Shown in pieces: positions 2,238 through 50,677 of a DNA stretch of 51,428 nucleotides (positions are counted from its first letter, which is position 1; every line of letters starts with the position of its first letter). The stretch comes from a virus. Under the pieces are notes generated by a model. That model saw only the letters and a program-made list of their open reading frames with translations. It did no database searches and was not told the DNA's origin. Both the position numbers and the translations under genes were made by a program. Location of the stretch: the IMG/VR virus record IMGVR_UViG_3300012929_000023, positions 1 through 51,428 of that record; one strand, written 5' to 3'.

Positions 2238-2337
2238 GGTATCCGTTACGGATTAAACGTTGTAACGCTAGGATAGCAACGCCTGTCCAATAGTCTCTAA
2301 GTTCATCATCAAACTTAATTATAAACGATCTTGCCAT
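2218..2337 (-). CDS. 39-residue hypothetical protein
   Basis: Starts MARSFIIKFDDELRDYW and looks like one globular helix-rich peptide. It begins inside the last 23 bases of the nuclease gene and runs 20 bases into the endonuclease VII gene, so it fills the gap between them exactly. No recognised family. Confidence 0.5.
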   Translation of the reverse strand: MARSFIIKFDDELRDYWTGVAILALQRLIRNGYLEQYQK

Positions 2338-3070
2338 TTTTGTCAACTTCAACGATATGAGGGAGTGGATGCTTTACGACTTTAACGAAGTCAACGGGTC
2401 CGGAGGCGTAGAGGAAAGTGCGAAGCCCCGGAAAGCAAATATGCTTGAAGTCCGAGTAGCTAGCTTTCGTATCAAGCGTGATATTACCGCTTTTTCCCTC
2501 GGCTTGAGTGCCGCAAGTACATGCGGGGGCATGATCGCGTCCGACAATCTCTTTGTAAGTACGGACTCGGTCTCTAATGTTTTGTAGTCTAAGGTGGTGT
2601 TCATATAATGCTAAGTGTCCCAGAGTTTTATCCACAGCCAATAGAAAGGCAGATTGTTTATTCCGAACAACGTCGTCATCCAAGCTGCCACCCAGATAGC
2701 CGTCCAGTTGATCCAGATAACCGAACGGATCGTCCGTTGCGATCGACTTATCTTTGAACTTCTTAAAGCCAAAGCTGCTAGCAGACTTGACGTCCACAAG
2801 ATTACCATCAATAACACAGTCACGATGACCTTCGACCCCATCAAAAACGATAGCATCTTGCTCTCCTGTGACTTCGTGGCCAGCTGCCTTTGCTAAGGTT
2901 ATAACTAACGCTTCGATGATGTGTCCGTATCCGTACTTGATCTGCGCCCATGGAGGAAGGGGTTGGGCAAGATGAGGGGTATGGATGGAGTGCCAAAGTG
3001 CTTTCGGACAGCGCGGTCCCATCTGTGACAGACGGAGGCGAGGCGCTGACCTTGGACCCATACTTGCCAT
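2315..3070 (-). CDS. PD-(D/E)XK (RecB/Cas4-like) nuclease
   Basis: A nuclease of the PD-(D/E)XK superfamily common in podovirus replication modules, probably a 5'-3' exonuclease for recombination or host DNA degradation. From the annotated Met the order is: an LRLSQMGPRCPKALW motif, then IKYGYGHIIEALVI (metal-binding Glu), then GHRDCVIDG and LVDVKSASS, which supply the catalytic D...D-x-K. C-terminal cysteines (CTCG) suggest a small zinc or Fe-S like site. The frame stays open and plausible for about 40 codons upstream of 3070 (to about 3193), but contains no ATG, GTG or TTG. The true start is therefore uncertain (see findings). Confidence 0.88.
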   Translation of the reverse strand: MASMGPRSAPRLRLSQMGPRCPKALWHSIHTPHLAQPLPPWAQIKYGYGHIIEALVITLAKAAGHEVTGEQDAIVFDGVEGHRDCVIDGNLVDVKSASSFGFKKFKDKSIATDDPFGYLDQLDGYLGGSLDDDVVRNKQSAFLLAVDKTLGHLALYEHHLRLQNIRDRVRTYKEIVGRDHAPACTCGTQAEGKSGNITLDTKASYSDFKHICFPGLRTFLYASGPVDFVKVVKHPLPHIVEVDKNGKIVYN

Positions 3071-3430: not shown

Positions 3431-3741
3431 CAGTGTGCTCCGAAGTAAGTTGCTACAGTCTTGGAGATCATTCCGTAGATAATGAACTGAAGTCCACCGA
3501 GTGGCATAGCTGAAAGGAGAAGTAGCATCACGGTTTCACGGAATGTAAACGTCCACTTCTTCTTCTTATCGTCTTCCTTCTTCTCCGGGGTCTTCTTCTT
3601 AGCTGCTTCGGCTTTCTTCAAAGCCTTCGCTACCTGCTTGCTGATCTTCTTATAGATCGCGACTTCATCTGGAGTCTGCGGGGGTGGAAAACCATACTGC
3701 GGCGGCGGTGGGTATCCATAAGGCGGAGGATATCCATACAT
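3430..3741 (-). CDS. PYG-rich membrane protein
   Basis: 103 residues. The first 22 are a low-complexity Pro/Tyr/Gly run beginning MYGYPPPYGYPPPPQYG. Then come a strongly basic Lys-rich helix (about residues 28-62) and a C-terminal hydrophobic region (about 68-95) that could form one or two membrane passes. This tail-anchored layout suggests a membrane-associated scaffold. It has an excellent ribosome site (GAGAGGAAAC). Part of the Lys-rich coding sequence is duplicated, slightly altered, at about 3908-3938. Confidence 0.7.
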   Translation of the reverse strand: MYGYPPPYGYPPPPQYGFPPPQTPDEVAIYKKISKQVAKALKKAEAAKKKTPEKKEDDKKKKWTFTFRETVMLLLLSAMPLGGLQFIIYGMISKTVATYFGAH

Positions 3742-5758
3742 GATGTTTCCTCTCTTGTTAGTGGAGACTGGGGCCTCGGTTAAGAGGCCCCAGCTCGATC
3801 TCGGCCCGCGATAACCGGGCGTCTGTTGTGCCTCTTAGGGAGGCTGCGAGAGCTGCTGGTGGTTGAGGACGCTGTTACACATCGCCTTCCTCCTTCTTCT
3901 GCCTAGGCGGCTTTCTTCAAAGCCTTTGCTACTGGCTTAGTCACGCTAGTCCGGCGTGTGAATAGATTGTGGTTTGGACTTGGCCTTCGTCAGGGCAAGG
4001 AGGGTATAGTCTACAGAACCCCTAGAATTGCGCTCGCCGTGTAAAGTCTTACTGTGAATGGCCGTTGAACTCCAGTTAGTGACTGTAAGGTCACAGGTAT
4101 GGGCACAGTCCCCTATGTATTTCAAGGTCAGACGGTACATCCACTACGCTTTGTACGCGCCATTGGCCAACGCTTCCGTTACTGCCACGGCCGACACGGT
4201 CGTAGTCTTGTGGTCCCTGAGTCAGGGAAGATAGACAGACGGTAGACTACCGTCCCATCTAGCATCAGTTTCCGTTAGACATCCTATATGACTCTAAAGC
4301 AGCTACTTTGTCCGTAACCCGGCTCGTCGTGCCGACGCGTCTCCGTCATAAGAATGAACGTCTCTCTATGTCTCCCTTCAATATCGGACTCATGTGGCTG
4401 CTAAGCTTTGGTCCTTCTATCCAGAACGATCCATACCCATCACGGTATGTCCTGAGCCATAGTCTTATATCCCGCTACAGAGCACTTACGTGCGCCTCTC
4501 ACCGATTACAGTGGTTTGCTTCAGGATACGACAGCATCTGGGGCTAGCTTCAAAGGCCGCATTTCAGATCATCGCCTCGGAGTTTGGTTACGACCAACGA
4601 CTCCGTACCTTAGACTAATTCCAACGGTACGTCAACTGCTTCGGAGGGGTCCGTACTTCGTCAGTTTAGTCGCAACCGGAGGTTGCTCTATTACCTGCCG
4701 CTACTATATCCACTTGCTGCTGCCTCAGTACGAAGGAGTCGAACCTTCACGCCTGAGTGGATGGGTTTCAGTAGAAGACCTTCCTCTTCTCTAGCTTTGT
4801 TCGGGCTGTTTATCCTAACGGCGGAGAGCCGTTGGAAGATGTACCGGACGTACTTCAGGCAGGCTATACCCACCTTCGGTTCAGTCTCTTACGTTTACTC
4901 ACAGTCACATCCCCACGGGAGAGCCTTCTGCAGCCAAGACAGGTTTTCAACGCGTCTTCTTAAAGCTTATACCGACCGGGTCGGTTGGTGTCGGACATCT
5001 CCCTCACTCACCGCGACTGTTACTCTACCGTTTCGAACGGCGCTTCCTTGTCCAGTAAGCTTAAGCTTTTTAAGCTTACTCAGAAGTGTCCCCTCGCGTG
5101 TATTGTACGTATGTTTAATGTGGTTGTCTCCCACAGAGATATCGGTCAGAACCTTAAGGTATCTTAAGGTTCGTTATACACACCTTAGTTTGCTTGATTT
5201 TAGCCTCCATCCAAGCTCACGGGCATCTGTACGCCTTTGCTTTTCAGGGCCAGTCTCGCCTTGCAGGGCATCGTACAGGCATTACCCCCTACGGGGCTGC
5301 AGAACTACAGTTCAAGGAGGGTGATCTTTACCTACATGTCTTGTAGTCTGGGAGCGCTTCACCTTGTGGAGGGGGCGCGCACACACCAAGCTCGGATCGC
5401 AACTCCGATTACAGCTGTATCGGCTGACACCAAACCATGCGTTTAATGCTACTTGGGATTACGTAGGTGGGTTCAGGCTGACTGCCGCCACACTGCGAGG
5501 ACGGCGGGAGAATAAGAAGCTTTATGCCGCAACTCCCACTGATCATGCTCCGCATCCCTTGTCAGGTCGAGCAAGCCACCACTGTGATGTTGATTCTGTC
5601 GTCAGACTATCCTGCACCACAGATAAAAGAAACAGGCGACACCGTTACTGATGCCGCCTGTGTCCCGGTGCTCGGAGAAGGAGGGCGTAATAAGCACCGG
5701 GTAAAGTAGCCAGAGCTATGGGTAATTGCTTACCTCTTCGTTGGCTCTGGAATAGGTG
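3742..5758. ncRNA. Large structured noncoding region (putative giant RNA)
   Basis: Two kilobases in a gene-dense phage with no convincing gene on either strand. Perfect or near-perfect hairpins occur throughout: 3768-3793 (10 bp), 4079-4094, 4238-4254, 4432-4449, 4482-4493, 4578-4605 (11 bp), 4672-4686, 4817-4833, 5028-5040, 5054-5080 (11 bp), 5149-5172 (10 bp), 5227-5278, 5392-5408, 5482-5510, 5632-5661, 5664-5701 (9 bp) and 5710-5750. Strand evidence is mixed but leans minus. The 5632-5661 stem becomes 12 continuous pairs with two G-U only as minus RNA, and two loops (4482-4493 and inside 5710-5750) become GUAA and GCAA tetraloops. Minus also matches the neighbouring operon. It ends just before two coding genes. 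It resembles in style, but I cannot equate it with, giant phage RNAs such as GOLLD or ROOL. Confidence 0.7.
4724..4757 (-). other. tRNA-minihelix-like hairpin inside the RNA region
   Basis: On the minus strand a five-pair stem GAAGG/CCTTC carries a canonical T-loop (TTCGACT), enclosed by a second five-pair stem CTCAG/CTGAG. This mimics a T-arm stacked on part of an acceptor stem. No D-arm, anticodon arm or matching 5' acceptor strand is found upstream, so it is not a normal tRNA. Confidence 0.5.
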
Positions 5759-5902
5759 TTAACAAAACGAACGAATCTCTTTCAATCCATTAATCATCTG
5801 TTGATACTGATAAGTCCAGTATCCGTAAAACGCAACGATAAGAAACAGTGTTGCAATCGTTGTGCCGATCATGTCGGCTTGGGTACATGTACTCAATTCC
5901 AT
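5759..5902 (-). CDS. 47-residue single-pass membrane protein
   Basis: Starts MELSTCTQADMIGTTI and has one membrane segment (about residues 12-29) ending in FYGYWTYQY, then a short basic tail. AGAAGGAAC precedes the ATG, and the start overlaps the end of the ssDNA-binding gene by 10 bases. It is the last coding gene before the 2-kb structured region. Function unknown. Confidence 0.65.
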   Translation of the reverse strand: MELSTCTQADMIGTTIATLFLIVAFYGYWTYQYQQMINGLKEIRSFC

Positions 5903-6402
5903 AGTTCCTTCTGTGGCGGAGTAGCCATTGTCTCAGCGACTGCTGCTTGCTCCGCTGGTGTGTAATCCTTATGTGGGGTAAATGGATTAAGCTTGTCGAC
6001 ACGTACGGCCTTCAATCGAAGGGCACGTCCTTGTCCTTGTGCTCCGGGTATCCTGTGTTGGTAGCATTCGACAGTCAAGGTAAGATCACTGCCATGTCCT
6101 ACGAGCTGGTCTACTAACGGCATACCATCTGCTTTCATAACAAGTGGAGGAGCTAGTGGAGTGTTCTTACCCTTGACCCACATCTCGGGTTTACGGCTAA
6201 TTTGCATATTGAAGCCGTCTTCGTCCTTCTTGAGTTGGTTCTTAATTCCTTGTATCTGACCAATACCAGTCTGCAGTTCCCGAAGAATACCAAGACTCTT
6301 ATCGTCTGGGTAGAACTTCAATCCCCACTTACCGAACTGATCGAGTGCTACGAAGTGACAGTGCTGCCCCTTGCCTTGAAGGGTAACTAGTTCTGTGGCC
6401 AT
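5893..6402 (-). CDS. Probable ssDNA-binding protein (T7 gp2.5-like)
   Basis: 169 residues beginning MATELVTLQGKGQHCHFVAL. The composition and the core pattern (a beta-rich first half, then DLTLTVECYQ and a late ALRLKAVRVDKLNPF) resemble the OB-fold ssDNA-binding proteins of T7-like phages. The tail is acidic and ends in Leu-Trp-Asn, as expected for a protein-interaction tail. It lies directly downstream of the polymerase and a 57-residue gene, the expected context. Likely coats single strands at the fork and recruits polymerase and helicase. Assignment rests on pattern and neighbourhood. Confidence 0.6.
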   Translation of the reverse strand: MATELVTLQGKGQHCHFVALDQFGKWGLKFYPDDKSLGILRELQTGIGQIQGIKNQLKKDEDGFNMQISRKPEMWVKGKNTPLAPPLVMKADGMPLVDQLVGHGSDLTLTVECYQHRIPGAQGQGRALRLKAVRVDKLNPFTPHKDYTPAEQAAVAETMATPPQKELWN

Positions 6403-6575
6403 TACTTATTAACAATCTCTTTCACTGTGATAATTTCTACGTCTGAGACATCCAAGAACGTCTCTTTGACGTACTCTCTAGCCACAGTCTCCGCGTGTTC
6501 AACGTTATCGCCTTGGATGGTTACAACACCACCGTCACGAATTGTATAATCATATTCGACTTCATAAAAAGGCAT
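6402..6575 (-). CDS. 57-residue hypothetical protein
   Basis: Starts MPFYEVEYDYTIRDGG, beta-rich at the start and with an acidic helix at the end. The start overlaps the polymerase stop (TGATG) and the stop overlaps the next start (TAATG), so all three are co-translated. No family recognised. Confidence 0.7.
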   Translation of the reverse strand: MPFYEVEYDYTIRDGGVVTIQGDNVEHAETVAREYVKETFLDVSDVEIITVKEIVNK

Positions 6576-8512
6576 CAGTGTATCTCACTCCAGTTAAGTC
6601 CTACCCCGCCTGAGCCAGCTAAGGGACATTTTAAATTCAACTTCTTACCAGCGTTGACGATTTCTTCTTCGAACACATGCTGTATGTATTCAGCATATCG
6701 GATATCGTTGCGGGTCTCTATGACAACTTCGTCATGTACTATATTGGTTAATATATATTCAATTTCCTCCTTTGTCAACCTCTCTGAGGCAGAGATTGTC
6801 GCTTCTTTCATGATTATTTGTTCGCCGTTCTGCAGATATCCAGACATGCAAAGATGTCTCCTGAGTCCCACGGTATCCCCCGGTATAGCGACTTTTCGTC
6901 CATCAAGACCCACAAACCATCCCCGTCTTGCATCAGCGGGAATGACATTCTCTTTGAGCATCGCAAACCCTTCGTACCGGGATAATAGACGGTCAAGTGC
7001 GCCTTTAGTTTCATCCGTGGATGACGAAAGGATCTCTGCCAATTTCGAAATGCCTGCTCCCAACAAGAGAGCAAAGATGAACCGCTTAGAGGCCGCCCTA
7101 GTCTTGCAGACAGGACCAAGTATTCTTTGGTTGAGGCTATGGGGGTCAGTGCCATCTTCTTTCCTTCCATCGACAAGAGCTTTGGTAAACTCTGCATCGT
7201 CGATGTAATGTGCAAATATTCTTAACTGAATTCCTTCGGCGTCGACGCCAACCAATAGTCTGTTCTTCGGCGCACACCATAAGCTTCGGAGTTCTTTGCC
7301 GAGAAGCTTTGGTCTACCTTCTAAATCAAGATCGACGGGGATGTTAGCTGTGTTGGGCTTCTGATGAGCCATCCGGTGCGTCCATGCACCGATGCCAAGG
7401 AAGTCACCGTGGATGCGGCCATCAGGTTGAACAAGACCAATCCATTCAACTAATGTTCTTCTACGACTTTCGTAGAGAATTCTCTGCGCTAGAGTACGGG
7501 CGGCATCCGGAGCCGAGGTAGGGAGAGTCTCTAGGTTGGCTTCGTTGACTTTCCAGCCAGTCTTTCTCAATTCTTGAAGCTTAGTCTGACATAGTTTCAA
7601 GTCTGCGTCAAGCGCAGCAGACCTAGCTTTCGAGAACTTAAGTTGGTTAAGCGTTCTTTCGGTATCTATGTGAGTCTGCGTACGATCTACAGGAGCCCAG
7701 CCTGCATGAGACAAGACCTCAATGATTTGCTTGTGACTATTAGGGTTAAAAGACTCCCAACTGCACCGGCAGAAAGGCCCACCATTAAACTCACTAAGGT
7801 CACCATGCCCCAGAAACCTAAAGTCCGTCTTAGAAAGCGTTCCATGCTTTGTTACCTTCGGTGTGACTTCTCTGATTAACTTCAATCGATCAGGGAACAC
7901 CTTAAGTATCTCTTTATCTAAAGTACTTAACACTAGAGTTACACTAGTAAGATATTCTAGTGCTTTACTCTTGTTAAAGAAAAAGCCATTAGTATTTAAT
8001 GTATTAGTAATACTTACGAACTTATGTTCTCTTTCTAAAGAGTTCTTATGTTCTTCTTTAGATATATACTTAAGGTACTTAAGGTATATCTTATACGTTA
8101 TGTCGACATCACGTACGCAGTACTCCTCCATCTCTGGAGAGTACTTACTCCAGTCGGTGTACTTGCCCTTCAGAAGTCCGAACTCTTCGCCGTAACTCTC
8201 GACACTATGCGATTTTCGAGAGTAGTCAACGAGCTTGCTAACAAGATACGTATCGAGGCATTGTCTTCCAACATCTTCGAATGAGACCCCAAGAAGATTT
8301 TTAAGTACTGGTGCATCATAACCAAGCAGATTATGTCCAATGAAATACTTACAATGTTTCCAAAAATTAACAAAGCGTTCTCGCTCTTCTGGGTCCGTAG
8401 TTACATTTCTAAAAATGTGCTTATGACAGGTATCGATGTCCATACAGACGATCACCCAGACCTGCGTCGGGTTGACTAATCCATTGGTTTCTAAATCTAA
8501 GACTATTCTCAA
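6575..8512 (-). CDS. Family A DNA polymerase (T7 gp5-like)
   Basis: A 645-residue replicative polymerase. The 3'-5' proofreading domain comes first: Exo I DLETNGL (D6, E8), Exo II around NLLGYDAP (D66), Exo III YCVRDVDITY (about 131-140). In the polymerase domain, motif A is VGVDAEGIQLRIFAHY (about 421-436), motif B KRFIFALLLGAG (about 476-487) and motif C IVHDEVVIE near the C-terminus. Length is slightly below T7 gp5. The likely start is TTG with a purine-rich AGAAGA upstream; no in-frame ATG is near. A structured noncoding stretch sits immediately upstream. Confidence 0.96.
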   Translation of the reverse strand: MRIVLDLETNGLVNPTQVWVIVCMDIDTCHKHIFRNVTTDPEERERFVNFWKHCKYFIGHNLLGYDAPVLKNLLGVSFEDVGRQCLDTYLVSKLVDYSRKSHSVESYGEEFGLLKGKYTDWSKYSPEMEEYCVRDVDITYKIYLKYLKYISKEEHKNSLEREHKFVSITNTLNTNGFFFNKSKALEYLTSVTLVLSTLDKEILKVFPDRLKLIREVTPKVTKHGTLSKTDFRFLGHGDLSEFNGGPFCRCSWESFNPNSHKQIIEVLSHAGWAPVDRTQTHIDTERTLNQLKFSKARSAALDADLKLCQTKLQELRKTGWKVNEANLETLPTSAPDAARTLAQRILYESRRRTLVEWIGLVQPDGRIHGDFLGIGAWTHRMAHQKPNTANIPVDLDLEGRPKLLGKELRSLWCAPKNRLLVGVDAEGIQLRIFAHYIDDAEFTKALVDGRKEDGTDPHSLNQRILGPVCKTRAASKRFIFALLLGAGISKLAEILSSSTDETKGALDRLLSRYEGFAMLKENVIPADARRGWFVGLDGRKVAIPGDTVGLRRHLCMSGYLQNGEQIIMKEATISASERLTKEEIEYILTNIVHDEVVIETRNDIRYAEYIQHVFEEEIVNAGKKLNLKCPLAGSGGVGLNWSEIH

Positions 8513-10840: not shown

Positions 10841-11083
10841 CTACGCCATCTTAGATTTATATATTAAAAAGTAATTACCCGCTACGGTTCCTAGTAGCCA
10901 ATGCTCTTGAAGATGAATACCCGGAGGGTAATGCGTAAAACTACTGTACGTAACAGTCACCCAAGCGTGATCGCGGTAGAGTTCTGAAGTACTGTCTTTG
11001 ACATACCCAGACACTCGATAGTGTTCGTCGTCATGCGACCATCGAGTCAATTCGGCTGTTATCATTGGCGGGCGCGGCATCAT
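10841..11083 (-). CDS. 80-residue beta-rich hypothetical protein
   Basis: Starts MMPRPPMITAELTRWS with GGAG eight bases upstream. Alternating hydrophobic pattern (YRVSGYVKDS, WVTVTYSSF, HWLLGTVAGNYFLIY) suggests a small beta-barrel. Overlaps the primase-helicase 3' end by 53 nt. No family recognised. Confidence 0.65.
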   Translation of the reverse strand: MMPRPPMITAELTRWSHDDEHYRVSGYVKDSTSELYRDHAWVTVTYSSFTHYPPGIHLQEHWLLGTVAGNYFLIYKSKMA

Positions 11084-12653
11084 AGATATTCTCCGATAGC
11101 GTATACGTTTGAGGATCGAAGATCAATTGTCCCGCTGGACCAGTTCTCCCGCAGAACCTATTCTTACTGACTAAGACATTCATCAGACTTCTGACCACAG
11201 GATCACTGTGCTTCAGGTCACGGGTAAGATCAATACGGATATCCGCAACCTTGGATATGTTACGACTACCCCGTGTCAGACCATCATCGTTGACATGAGA
11301 GACGATAATCAACGAGAAGTCTAACTCCTTCACCATCATTTCGAGTCTGGTGGAGAGGTAGTCAAGTGCACGGCGTTCGCTCTCGCCTGCGAGGCCGCTA
11401 ACCGCCATAGTAATATGGTCGAGAATAACGAACCTACAAGCACGGGCAGCAACGAGGAACCTAATAGTGTCAATAAGATCGTCTGGATCAGCACTACCAA
11501 AATGAGAATAAATATGAAGACGGTCATCGTTGCCCACAGCAGTGGCGAGAGCAGCAGCAATCTCACTAGCTGAGCAGCCGCTATCCGGCAAGTGGACAGG
11601 CTTCCTGAGCTGAAGTCCCGCAATAGCTTGGAGATGCCTTCGTTTTGGCTCTTCAAGAAAGATTGCTCCGACGTTGTCTTTGGTTTCCTTAAGGATGTGG
11701 TACTCCAAAGCATGACATACCTCAGTCTTTCCTACGCCCTCTTGGGCTGTCAAAAGAATTGTCTCTCCGGTACGGATACCGTATGTCATATACGTCAATG
11801 TAGGAAACGGATAAGACACACCTGACTTCGGAACTTCCGCGAGGATTTTCTCAAATATATGTTGCGATGAGATAATCGTCTCTGGGAGAAACCGTTTAGC
11901 GTTCCACCAAATCTGTCTTAGTTCAGAGGCGGCTCCGTGGGTGAGGAAGTCATTGGCGTCTTTTCGGTCTCCACCGGGGAAGTTGAGCTGGTAGACTTTG
12001 TTGTAGTCAAAGAGCTTAGCCACGCGAGATGCGGCTTGACGGCCTGCCTCATCTCCGTCGAAAGCAAGGTAAATCCTTTCGAATGAATTAAGATAGGCCC
12101 GATCAACAGCACAATCAGACACAGCAGAACTGCTTGATTGAACAGAAACAACAGGCGACCTAATGACTTGATGAAGGCTGACAGCATCGAGTTCCCCTTC
12201 TGTGATTGTCACATATTTGTGACTACCGGCCGGAAATCTGTTACGACCAAACAAACCAGCTTTACCGATATCGCCTTGAGTATAAAATCCCTTCTTGTCT
12301 AACGTCCTTATTTTATAACTACCATTACTATAAGCAAAGCCAACAGAAAGAGGTTTACCCGAAGCATCCACTTTTGTCTTGACATCATAAAATTGTAATG
12401 TCTCGCGGTCAACACTACGGTAGGGTATGTATTCGTAAGTATATTCTGCATCCATAAATTCTTTTCCGGTGGCTTTGCCACCTTTTTTATCTCTAGGTTT
12501 ATAATAATTACATGCGAAACACCAACCATGCCCATCATCGTAGGTGCAAAACGCATCACTAGATGTACAGGACGGACACGGTTGATGTAGCTCGGTGATC
12601 TTACCCTTTTGGAGGTGGGTGGAGTTTAAGTCCGGGATGGAGTTCGTAGTCAT
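11031..12653 (-). CDS. Primase-helicase (T7 gp4-like)
   Basis: A bifunctional replication protein of about 540 residues that makes RNA primers and unwinds the fork. An N-terminal zinc-binding domain has CPSC and CFAC pairs; a TOPRIM core follows with the ITEGELDAVS Glu motif and LAFDGDEAGRQAA; the C-terminal RecA-like helicase has Walker A TAQEGVGKTE, Walker B FVILDHITM and a downstream LIIVSHVNDDG. The open frame extends to 12773, but I start at MTTNSIPDLNST just before the zinc domain; it lacks a clear Shine-Dalgarno and overlaps the upstream gene by 53 nt, so the start is uncertain. Confidence 0.95.
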   Translation of the reverse strand: MTTNSIPDLNSTHLQKGKITELHQPCPSCTSSDAFCTYDDGHGWCFACNYYKPRDKKGGKATGKEFMDAEYTYEYIPYRSVDRETLQFYDVKTKVDASGKPLSVGFAYSNGSYKIRTLDKKGFYTQGDIGKAGLFGRNRFPAGSHKYVTITEGELDAVSLHQVIRSPVVSVQSSSSAVSDCAVDRAYLNSFERIYLAFDGDEAGRQAASRVAKLFDYNKVYQLNFPGGDRKDANDFLTHGAASELRQIWWNAKRFLPETIISSQHIFEKILAEVPKSGVSYPFPTLTYMTYGIRTGETILLTAQEGVGKTEVCHALEYHILKETKDNVGAIFLEEPKRRHLQAIAGLQLRKPVHLPDSGCSASEIAAALATAVGNDDRLHIYSHFGSADPDDLIDTIRFLVAARACRFVILDHITMAVSGLAGESERRALDYLSTRLEMMVKELDFSLIIVSHVNDDGLTRGSRNISKVADIRIDLTRDLKHSDPVVRSLMNVLVSKNRFCGRTGPAGQLIFDPQTYTLSENIYDAAPANDNSRIDSMVA

Positions 12654-13311
12654 AATAATGGTTGAGCCATGGACGTTGGATCTTCGTGCTAATACGCACT
12701 GGATCGAAGGATAAAGCATCAATCTGATCTCCCCAATATTCAGGGACGCCGATGTACATCCACGCCCAAACACCTTTGATGTGCTCAGCTGTGACTGTTA
12801 TAGCTCGGCCGGAGAATGAGTTGGGATCGCGTTCCTTCAAGAATTGTTGGTCTTGGAAAGGAACCGCGACGAAGATGAGTTTTCGATAGAATTGTACCGT
12901 ATTCAGCCTGTGATTGTCAAGATCAATGAAAGCTCTAGGCCGAATTAACCACAATTCTCCCTTGATTCGTGCTGGTGGTGCTCCGCGTTGCTCAGCCCAT
13001 GGATGGAACTGTAGAGAATTCTTTCTAGAAACGCTCAAGATCGGGACTGGGAAAGATTTTTCTCCAAGATTTTTCTTCCAGAACGAGAAGTGATCGTTGG
13101 AGAATGCGACAGATCGACGCACGGAGTGCGGACCTAGCAGATGCCGGTTGGGGAAACCAGCCTTCATATCGTCAGCTACGAAGATATGGTGGAATTCTTT
13201 CTCTTGGAGCGTGCAGTAGTCAGGCGTGTGCTTAGCGAAGTCACTAGCCCATTGCAACCACTCTCCGGTTGGAGCCTTGATATTCTTCTTCCGAGACCAG
13301 TTCATCTTCAT
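12601..13311 (-). CDS. Gamma-glutamylcyclotransferase-like (AIG2 fold) protein
   Basis: 236 residues. The layout matches the GGCT/AIG2-like fold: an early FVADDMKAGFPNRHLLG (the YGxN-type substrate loop position, but altered), IKGELWLI, then FIDLDNHRLNTVQFYRK in place of the usual LDxxEG...YxR segment, then WAWMYIG. The catalytic Glu normally seen after LD appears replaced, so the protein may be a non-cyclotransferase relative. Enzymes of this fold cleave gamma-glutamyl groups. It lies beside a protein resembling a class II glutamine amidotransferase. Confidence 0.6.
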   Translation of the reverse strand: MKMNWSRKKNIKAPTGEWLQWASDFAKHTPDYCTLQEKEFHHIFVADDMKAGFPNRHLLGPHSVRRSVAFSNDHFSFWKKNLGEKSFPVPILSVSRKNSLQFHPWAEQRGAPPARIKGELWLIRPRAFIDLDNHRLNTVQFYRKLIFVAVPFQDQQFLKERDPNSFSGRAITVTAEHIKGVWAWMYIGVPEYWGDQIDALSFDPVRISTKIQRPWLNHYYDYELHPGLKLHPPPKG

Positions 13312-50595: not shown

Positions 50596-50604
50596 ACTAT
50601 TGTC

Positions 50605-50677
50605 TGGAAACGGTGGGACTCTTACCCACAACCTCCGCCGTTACAGGGCGGACTCATACACTTGAGCTACGAATCCA
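50605..50677 (-). tRNA. tRNA-like gene, anticodon GUA (tyrosine codons)
   Basis: A 73-base cloverleaf with a perfect anticodon stem CCGCC/GGCGG around CTGTAAC, giving GUA at 34-36, and a five-pair T stem GTGGG/CCCAC. D arm GCTC...GAGT. Oddities: T-loop TAAGAGT rather than TTCRA, and two adjacent T-T mismatches in the acceptor. The variable loop is short (five bases), unlike bacterial tRNA-Tyr. The body resembles tRNA-Asp with a changed third anticodon base. No CCA encoded. Confidence 0.6.

Follow-up and report, generated by a model that had tools for sequence, protein, structure and literature searches.

Genomic context of the noncoding block

The window analysed here is a 51.4-kb viral contig (51,428 nucleotides) of a soil phage, in which the replication genes occupy the minus strand of the left half. 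Within this early region, an ORF-poor block, a mini-ORF and the gene of a small membrane protein are flanked by the gene of a Cas4-like exonuclease and by a conserved gene that follows the DNA polymerase. The features of the locus are listed in Table 1.

Table 1 Features of the locus, in the order of minus-strand reading
Feature	Position	Strand	Remarks
Primase-helicase	11031-12773		Minus-strand half
Polymerase A	6575-8512		Minus-strand half
Conserved gene after DNA polymerase	5893-6402	-	Upstream anchor
47-aa ORF	5759-5902	-	Directly adjoins the RNA on its 5' side
Body of the candidate giant structured RNA	3883-5758 (ends approximate)	-	ORF-poor, at a conserved place; noncoding and covarying in relatives
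CCCGU and hairpin with invariant loop GGAGGCUAAAA, covarying stem	5179-5225	-	Model R1, covariation, swap test
Second T-loop-like hairpin, weaker, loop UUCGAAA	5027-5041	-	
tRNA T-arm-like hairpin GAAGGTTCGACTCCTTC	4732-4748	-	Same type counted 86:0 by strand in the blocks of relatives
Mini-ORF MCNSVLNHQQLSQPP, Pro-Pro-stop, with Shine-Dalgarno sequence	3835-3882	-	Like ORFs in relatives
GC-rich hairpin, 8 bp	3770-3791	-	Between mini-ORF and membrane-protein gene; read from sequence
103-aa protein: N-terminal part Pro-rich, middle Lys-rich, one C-terminal membrane helix	3430-3741	-	Follows the RNA in most relatives
Cas4-domain (Cas4-like) exonuclease	2315-3070	-	Downstream anchor

The 103-aa membrane protein matched no known family. 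Among cultured phages, the polymerase is most closely related, with about 31-38% identity, to marine phages including Zobellviridae (Cobavirinae). At the DNA level, the window has no close cultured relative, and a search for a host genome returned one distant match only. A stretch of 31 bp from the coding sequence of the membrane protein (3609-3639) is repeated with 90% identity in the 3' part of the block (3908-3938). A single ordinary tRNA-Tyr gene (50604-50677, minus strand) is located near the opposite end of the contig.

Conservation of the locus in related phages

Relatives were fetched through the polymerase (80) and, in addition, through the exonuclease, and about 70 loci were assigned to the family. 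Owing to this mode of sampling, and because close relatives were only partly removed from the locus set, the loci are not independent. Exact peptide patterns derived from the upstream anchor gene recovered no relatives, while synteny yielded 65.

Both anchors are present in about 55 relatives, and in all of these the gap between the homologue of the upstream anchor and the exonuclease gene spans 1.6-4.3 kb. Most gaps contain an ORF-poor block of 1-2 kb on the early-operon strand. Shortly 3' of the block follows an ORF of roughly 100 aa, the product of which is in many cases Pro-rich at the start and Lys/Glu-rich in the middle and has a single membrane helix. The block is absent from the cultured phages CRP-13, CRP-4 and ICBM2 as well as from more distant contigs, where the neighbours are alike and coding sequence is found throughout. 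The block is thus an innovation of one soil-phage clade.

The block DNA of the window showed no similarity to phage records or, using blastn and nhmmer, to the 80 relatives; it is without an alignable relative. A 21-base motif of the clade was found in 13 stretches of the whole viral collection, all within the clade: 12 either had been assigned before or contain a marker gene in the retrieved locus, and one (L285) shares its contig with member L075. A broad scan of viral contigs with the m1 pattern returned mostly chance strings, with high model scores in clade members only.

Noncoding character and folding energy

In nine pairs of relatives with block stretches that are 70-87% identical, block substitutions are spread over the codon phases without preference (chi-square 0.1-3.4), and the majority of indels break the frame, their length not being divisible by three. 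In eight of these nine pairs, strong periodicity is seen in the coding sequence on the flanks. ORFs within the block of the window reach at most 213 aa, the longest having a TTG start and no family, and block ORFs of at least 60 aa had no match among the 80 relatives. Decayed or fast-evolving protein-coding DNA would account for such chance ORFs and for the 31-bp piece of the membrane-protein gene repeated in the block. The lack of codon periodicity, the mostly frame-breaking indels, the lack of conserved frames and the conserved noncoding motifs, however, refute this reading for the relatives and render it the least probable of those considered.

An earlier note on this DNA, made from the sequence of the window, had described 3742-5758 as free of credible genes on either strand. 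This holds for 3883-5758, while the mini-ORF at 3835-3882 had been overlooked, so that the noncoding part extends from about 5758 down to 3883. Conserved coding frames in homologues, named there as an observation that would speak against an RNA, were not found. The hairpins listed in the note are present, for example the stem of 12 pairs at 5632-5661 on the minus strand. Their dense packing, which had been taken as a sign of structure, does not distinguish the block: its folding is no more stable than that of dinucleotide shuffles or of coding DNA from the same phage. Scored in windows against dinucleotide shuffles, the mean z of the block is -0.74 (minus strand) and -0.89 (plus strand), compared with -0.26 to -0.94 for the coding DNA; z is -1.77 for positions 4300-5260. 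Since neither the hairpin density nor the folding energy of the block is above chance, hairpin density alone is no evidence, and the structure is shown by the comparison with relatives.

Conserved hairpins, covariation and strand

Three hairpins with invariant loops recur in the blocks, with the loops GGAGGCUAAAA, UCUCAUUAG and the T-loop GUUCGANNC. Their stems were examined by a swap test, in which the pairing of a locus's own flanks is compared with that of flanks exchanged between loci (2000 permutations). Own flanks form 4.8 bp at GGAGGCUAAAA (3.2 when swapped), 4.1 at UCUCAUUAG (1.9) and 3.6 at the T-loop (1.4), in each case beyond all 2000 permutations. For seven alignable members, RNAalifold reported 16-27 compensatory pairs per window of the alignment, compared with means of 4-9 after column shuffling. 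The z-scores of the early strand are -3.0 to -5.9; those of the reverse strand are negative too, so that this analysis shows structure and not strand. The strand is indicated by the strict T-loop hairpins, of which the blocks contain 86 on the early strand and none on the opposite one.

The window carries one of the two invariant hairpins without a T-loop, in addition to T-loop hairpins. A covariance model built from ten relatives, with the window left out (R1), scores its hairpin at 31.3 bits, with E-values of 1e-5 over 1.5 Mb and 3e-7 in the window alone that are rough owing to a short calibration. A further motif, m2 (CCGGTGACAGACG..GATCAGTC), is conserved and specific to the clade; it was not found in the window, and the swap test has no power for its stem. 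The motif CCTCCGGTGACAGACG..GATCAGTC is likewise strongly conserved and restricted to the clade. It occurs on the early strand of L027, L041, L057, L073, L075, L128 and others, in many cases following the GGAGGCUAAAA hairpin at a distance of 40-100 nt, and has no recognisable copy in the window.

Taken together, the sequence comparisons make it very probable that a conserved structured RNA family exists, and the membership of the window is equally well supported. Reading from the minus strand is, by the same kind of evidence, close to certain. The giant structured RNA proposed in the earlier note is borne out by the invariant-loop hairpins, the swap test, the leave-out model match and covariation above shuffles in related contigs, the last being a check that the note had suggested. 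Its preference for minus transcription with the early operon agrees with the confinement of the recurrent motifs to that strand. The family as a whole displays what characterizes giant ornate structured phage RNAs, i.e. a long noncoding sequence with extensive covarying structure, and the window joins it through R1.

The same hairpins could act as DNA, for instance in a replication origin or a packaging signal. The block sits among replication genes, and inverted repeats fold in single-stranded DNA as well. Such an element is nevertheless very improbable: the motifs occur on one strand only, the stems tolerate G-U pairs, the T-loop and D-loop sequences are RNA motifs, and the block is missing from relatives that are further away but have the same replication genes.

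Permuted tRNA-like modules

Many relatives carry the T-loop hairpin within a larger module that has the order T-arm, short closed hairpin, U-G and D-arm (TGGCGAAAyyGGyAnACGC). The covariation score of the module is 0.61 in an unfitted MAFFT alignment and at most 0.17 when slid. A fitted alignment, which leans towards the structure, has both-side changes in 13 of 13 pairs. At the place of the anticodon stem lies an additional helix of about 5-10 bp, which pairs better than shuffled partners (6.0, shuffled 4.5 +/- 0.23); the MAFFT alignment of the full module put this stalk helix in the wrong place. A variable arm is often present, and free-energy folding alone produced a cloverleaf in most modules tested. 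All 104 hits of the module model R2 are on the early strand. The module list contains duplicates and one false positive (L130, where R2 matched ordinary tandem tRNAs), leaving about 15 distinct relatives, with the closed acceptor hairpin in about 10. The window has T-loop hairpins only and no full tRNA-like module.

A normal-order cloverleaf with an open acceptor, as in a tRNA, was not found in the modules, and ARAGORN called a tRNA only after they had been un-permuted, i.e. with the normal order restored, a neutral anticodon loop and the stalk trimmed. Five of six un-permuted modules were then called, compared with none of 500 shuffles. As 8 of 20 were still called with swapped acceptor strands, these calls support the geometry of T-arm, D-arm and anticodon stem and not the acceptor pairing. 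The blocks themselves are without tRNAs, except for L051, in which ARAGORN made one call, of undefined type (13065-13160). To judge from sequence and predicted pairing, a permuted tRNA fold in the relatives is very likely. The modules look like class II (Leu/Ser-type) tRNAs with a closed acceptor and an opening in the anticodon loop, at which they join the large RNA. Ordinary tRNA-Leu(UAA) genes are present in the early region of L025, L036, L038, L040, L041, L051, L052, L054, L058 and L075, and the Leu-type permuted modules may derive from them. A repeated string, GTATCCTAGAA, occurs in the variable arm or the acceptor insertion of some modules (L286, L112 and L034, early-strand blocks) and might serve these as a common docking sequence.

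T-loops occur widely as tertiary motifs in large RNAs, and T-loops and permuted tRNA folds could serve as tertiary building blocks of a purely architectural cage or scaffold that makes no contact with translation. GOLLD and ROOL, which build RNA-only cages (PMC12286853), provide a precedent for such an RNA, and many members including the window do not have the full module. Against this, the D-arm and variable arm resemble those of tRNAs in detail, and the probably stalling ORF described below points to translation. The architectural alternative is accordingly regarded as improbable.

A Pro-Pro-stop mini-ORF at the 3' end

Shortly 5' of the membrane-protein gene, 59 of 70 loci contain a tiny ORF with a Shine-Dalgarno sequence that ends in Pro-Pro-stop, the stop codon nearly always being TAA. 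CCNCCN-stop occurs 3.7 times per kb at the 3' end and 0.2 times per kb in the remaining block. A start codon with a Shine-Dalgarno sequence is in frame in 56 of 58 cases, whereas the other two frames give 11 and 5. Synonymous variation is seen at the first Pro codon and suggests that the peptide is under selection. Translation of this ORF is probable, judging from its sequence features. In E. coli, a C-terminal Pro-Pro (YbeL-PP) leads to impaired termination, stop-codon cleavage and ssrA tagging (PMC3834316). By analogy, the ORF is likely to act as a programmed termination stall.

Such an ORF would also fit a very long cis-acting leader, in which the block and the mini-ORF fold and stall to control the downstream membrane-protein gene only. 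Both the mini-ORF and this gene lie 3' of the block on the same strand, and stalling leader peptides are a known control device. On the other hand, the block, which has several tRNA-like or T-loop modules and a length of 1-1.9 kb, is far larger than known leaders, and the conserved hairpins are 500-1500 nt away from the gene to be controlled. A leader of this kind is considered unlikely, if somewhat less so than a purely architectural RNA.

Proposed function

The reading favoured here, at a probability of roughly 55%, is that the block encodes a giant, multi-domain, early structured RNA of about 1-1.9 kb that is read from the minus strand together with the replication operon, engages translation and belongs to a family outside Rfam. 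The RNA would accumulate in infected cells as a folded scaffold, and its T-loop and tRNA-like modules would engage the ribosome or tRNA-binding proteins. The modules would not be chargeable, since their acceptor end is closed. A ribosome stalling at the Pro-Pro-stop ORF could either gate the downstream membrane protein or help to set the 3' end of the RNA by stop-codon cleavage. The Lys-rich membrane protein might anchor the RNA in a manner comparable to OapA and OLE RNA.

Within this proposal, engagement of the translation machinery, which is deduced from shape, is a tentative assignment at a little under even odds. Anchoring by the neighbouring membrane protein, put forward by analogy, is rather doubtful. 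The most far-reaching version would be a new class of giant RNA with unchargeable permuted tRNA mimics, a ribosome parked at the 3' Pro-Pro-stop and a membrane-protein anchor, i.e. a ribosome-tethering ribonucleoprotein made by the phage; this combination is speculative and more doubtful still. The family offers about 70 diverged members, a replication-operon context and two pointers to translation, namely modules shaped like tRNAs and a conserved peptide that probably stalls. All this renders the functional hypothesis directly testable.

Comparison with known RNA families

Rfam returned no family for the window or for 22 relatives, save ordinary tRNA genes outside the block. The window was unmatched at the gathering score, and relaxing the threshold to E<=5, in the search that the earlier note had suggested, gave a chance match only. 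The covariance models of GOLLD, ROOL and OLE were unmatched by the window and the 22 relatives. Of the two options raised in that note, GOLLD/ROOL or a new class, the latter therefore holds. By its sequence, the family is new and not in Rfam. In the open literature, a scope that takes in few subscription papers, GOLLD, ROOL and OLE are the nearest kind, and nothing was found on the present family. To our knowledge, the function of giant ornate phage RNAs is unknown and few classes have been described.

GOLLD is a giant (>800 nt), ornate RNA of phages and prophages, sometimes with embedded tRNAs, that is reported to bind ribosomes in pull-downs (PMC12286853). The block is alike in being a giant ornate phage RNA, but has other loops, permuted tRNA-like modules and a Pro-Pro-stop ORF, and lies in an early replication operon and not in a tRNA island. 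ROOL is also a large ornate phage RNA of unknown function; it measures about 660 nt, as opposed to 1-1.9 kb for the block, and differs in motifs and gene context.

The OapA gene sits next to OLE RNA, and the arrangement of a large RNA beside a membrane-protein gene is shared by the present family, in which RNA binding by the adjoining gene's product is putative. OapA is the membrane partner of OLE RNA (PMC12286853). OLE RNA occurs in extremophile bacteria, whereas the present RNA is confined to one soil-phage clade and its membrane protein is without a known family.

In tmRNA, especially in its circularly permuted two-piece form, a tRNA-like domain is joined via the anticodon-stem position and a short ORF is located on the same RNA. 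The blocks with permuted modules combine a tRNA-like domain attached at this position with a short ORF as well. In contrast to tmRNA, the acceptor of the module is closed by a loop and thus unchargeable, the D-arm is complete and the module is not placed at the RNA ends; no tmRNA with a tag ORF and a chargeable acceptor was found by ARAGORN. Algae and archaea have circularly permuted tRNA genes, in which the 3' half precedes the 5' half and a short linker bridges the acceptor strands. The phage module differs from these in belonging to a larger RNA and not being a tRNA gene of its own; its opening is in the anticodon arm, which connects it as a stalk to that RNA, and no CCA or splice features were seen; the order of the halves and the linked acceptor strands are the same. 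Embedded, closed, circularly permuted tRNA folds would represent a new way to build a tRNA mimic.
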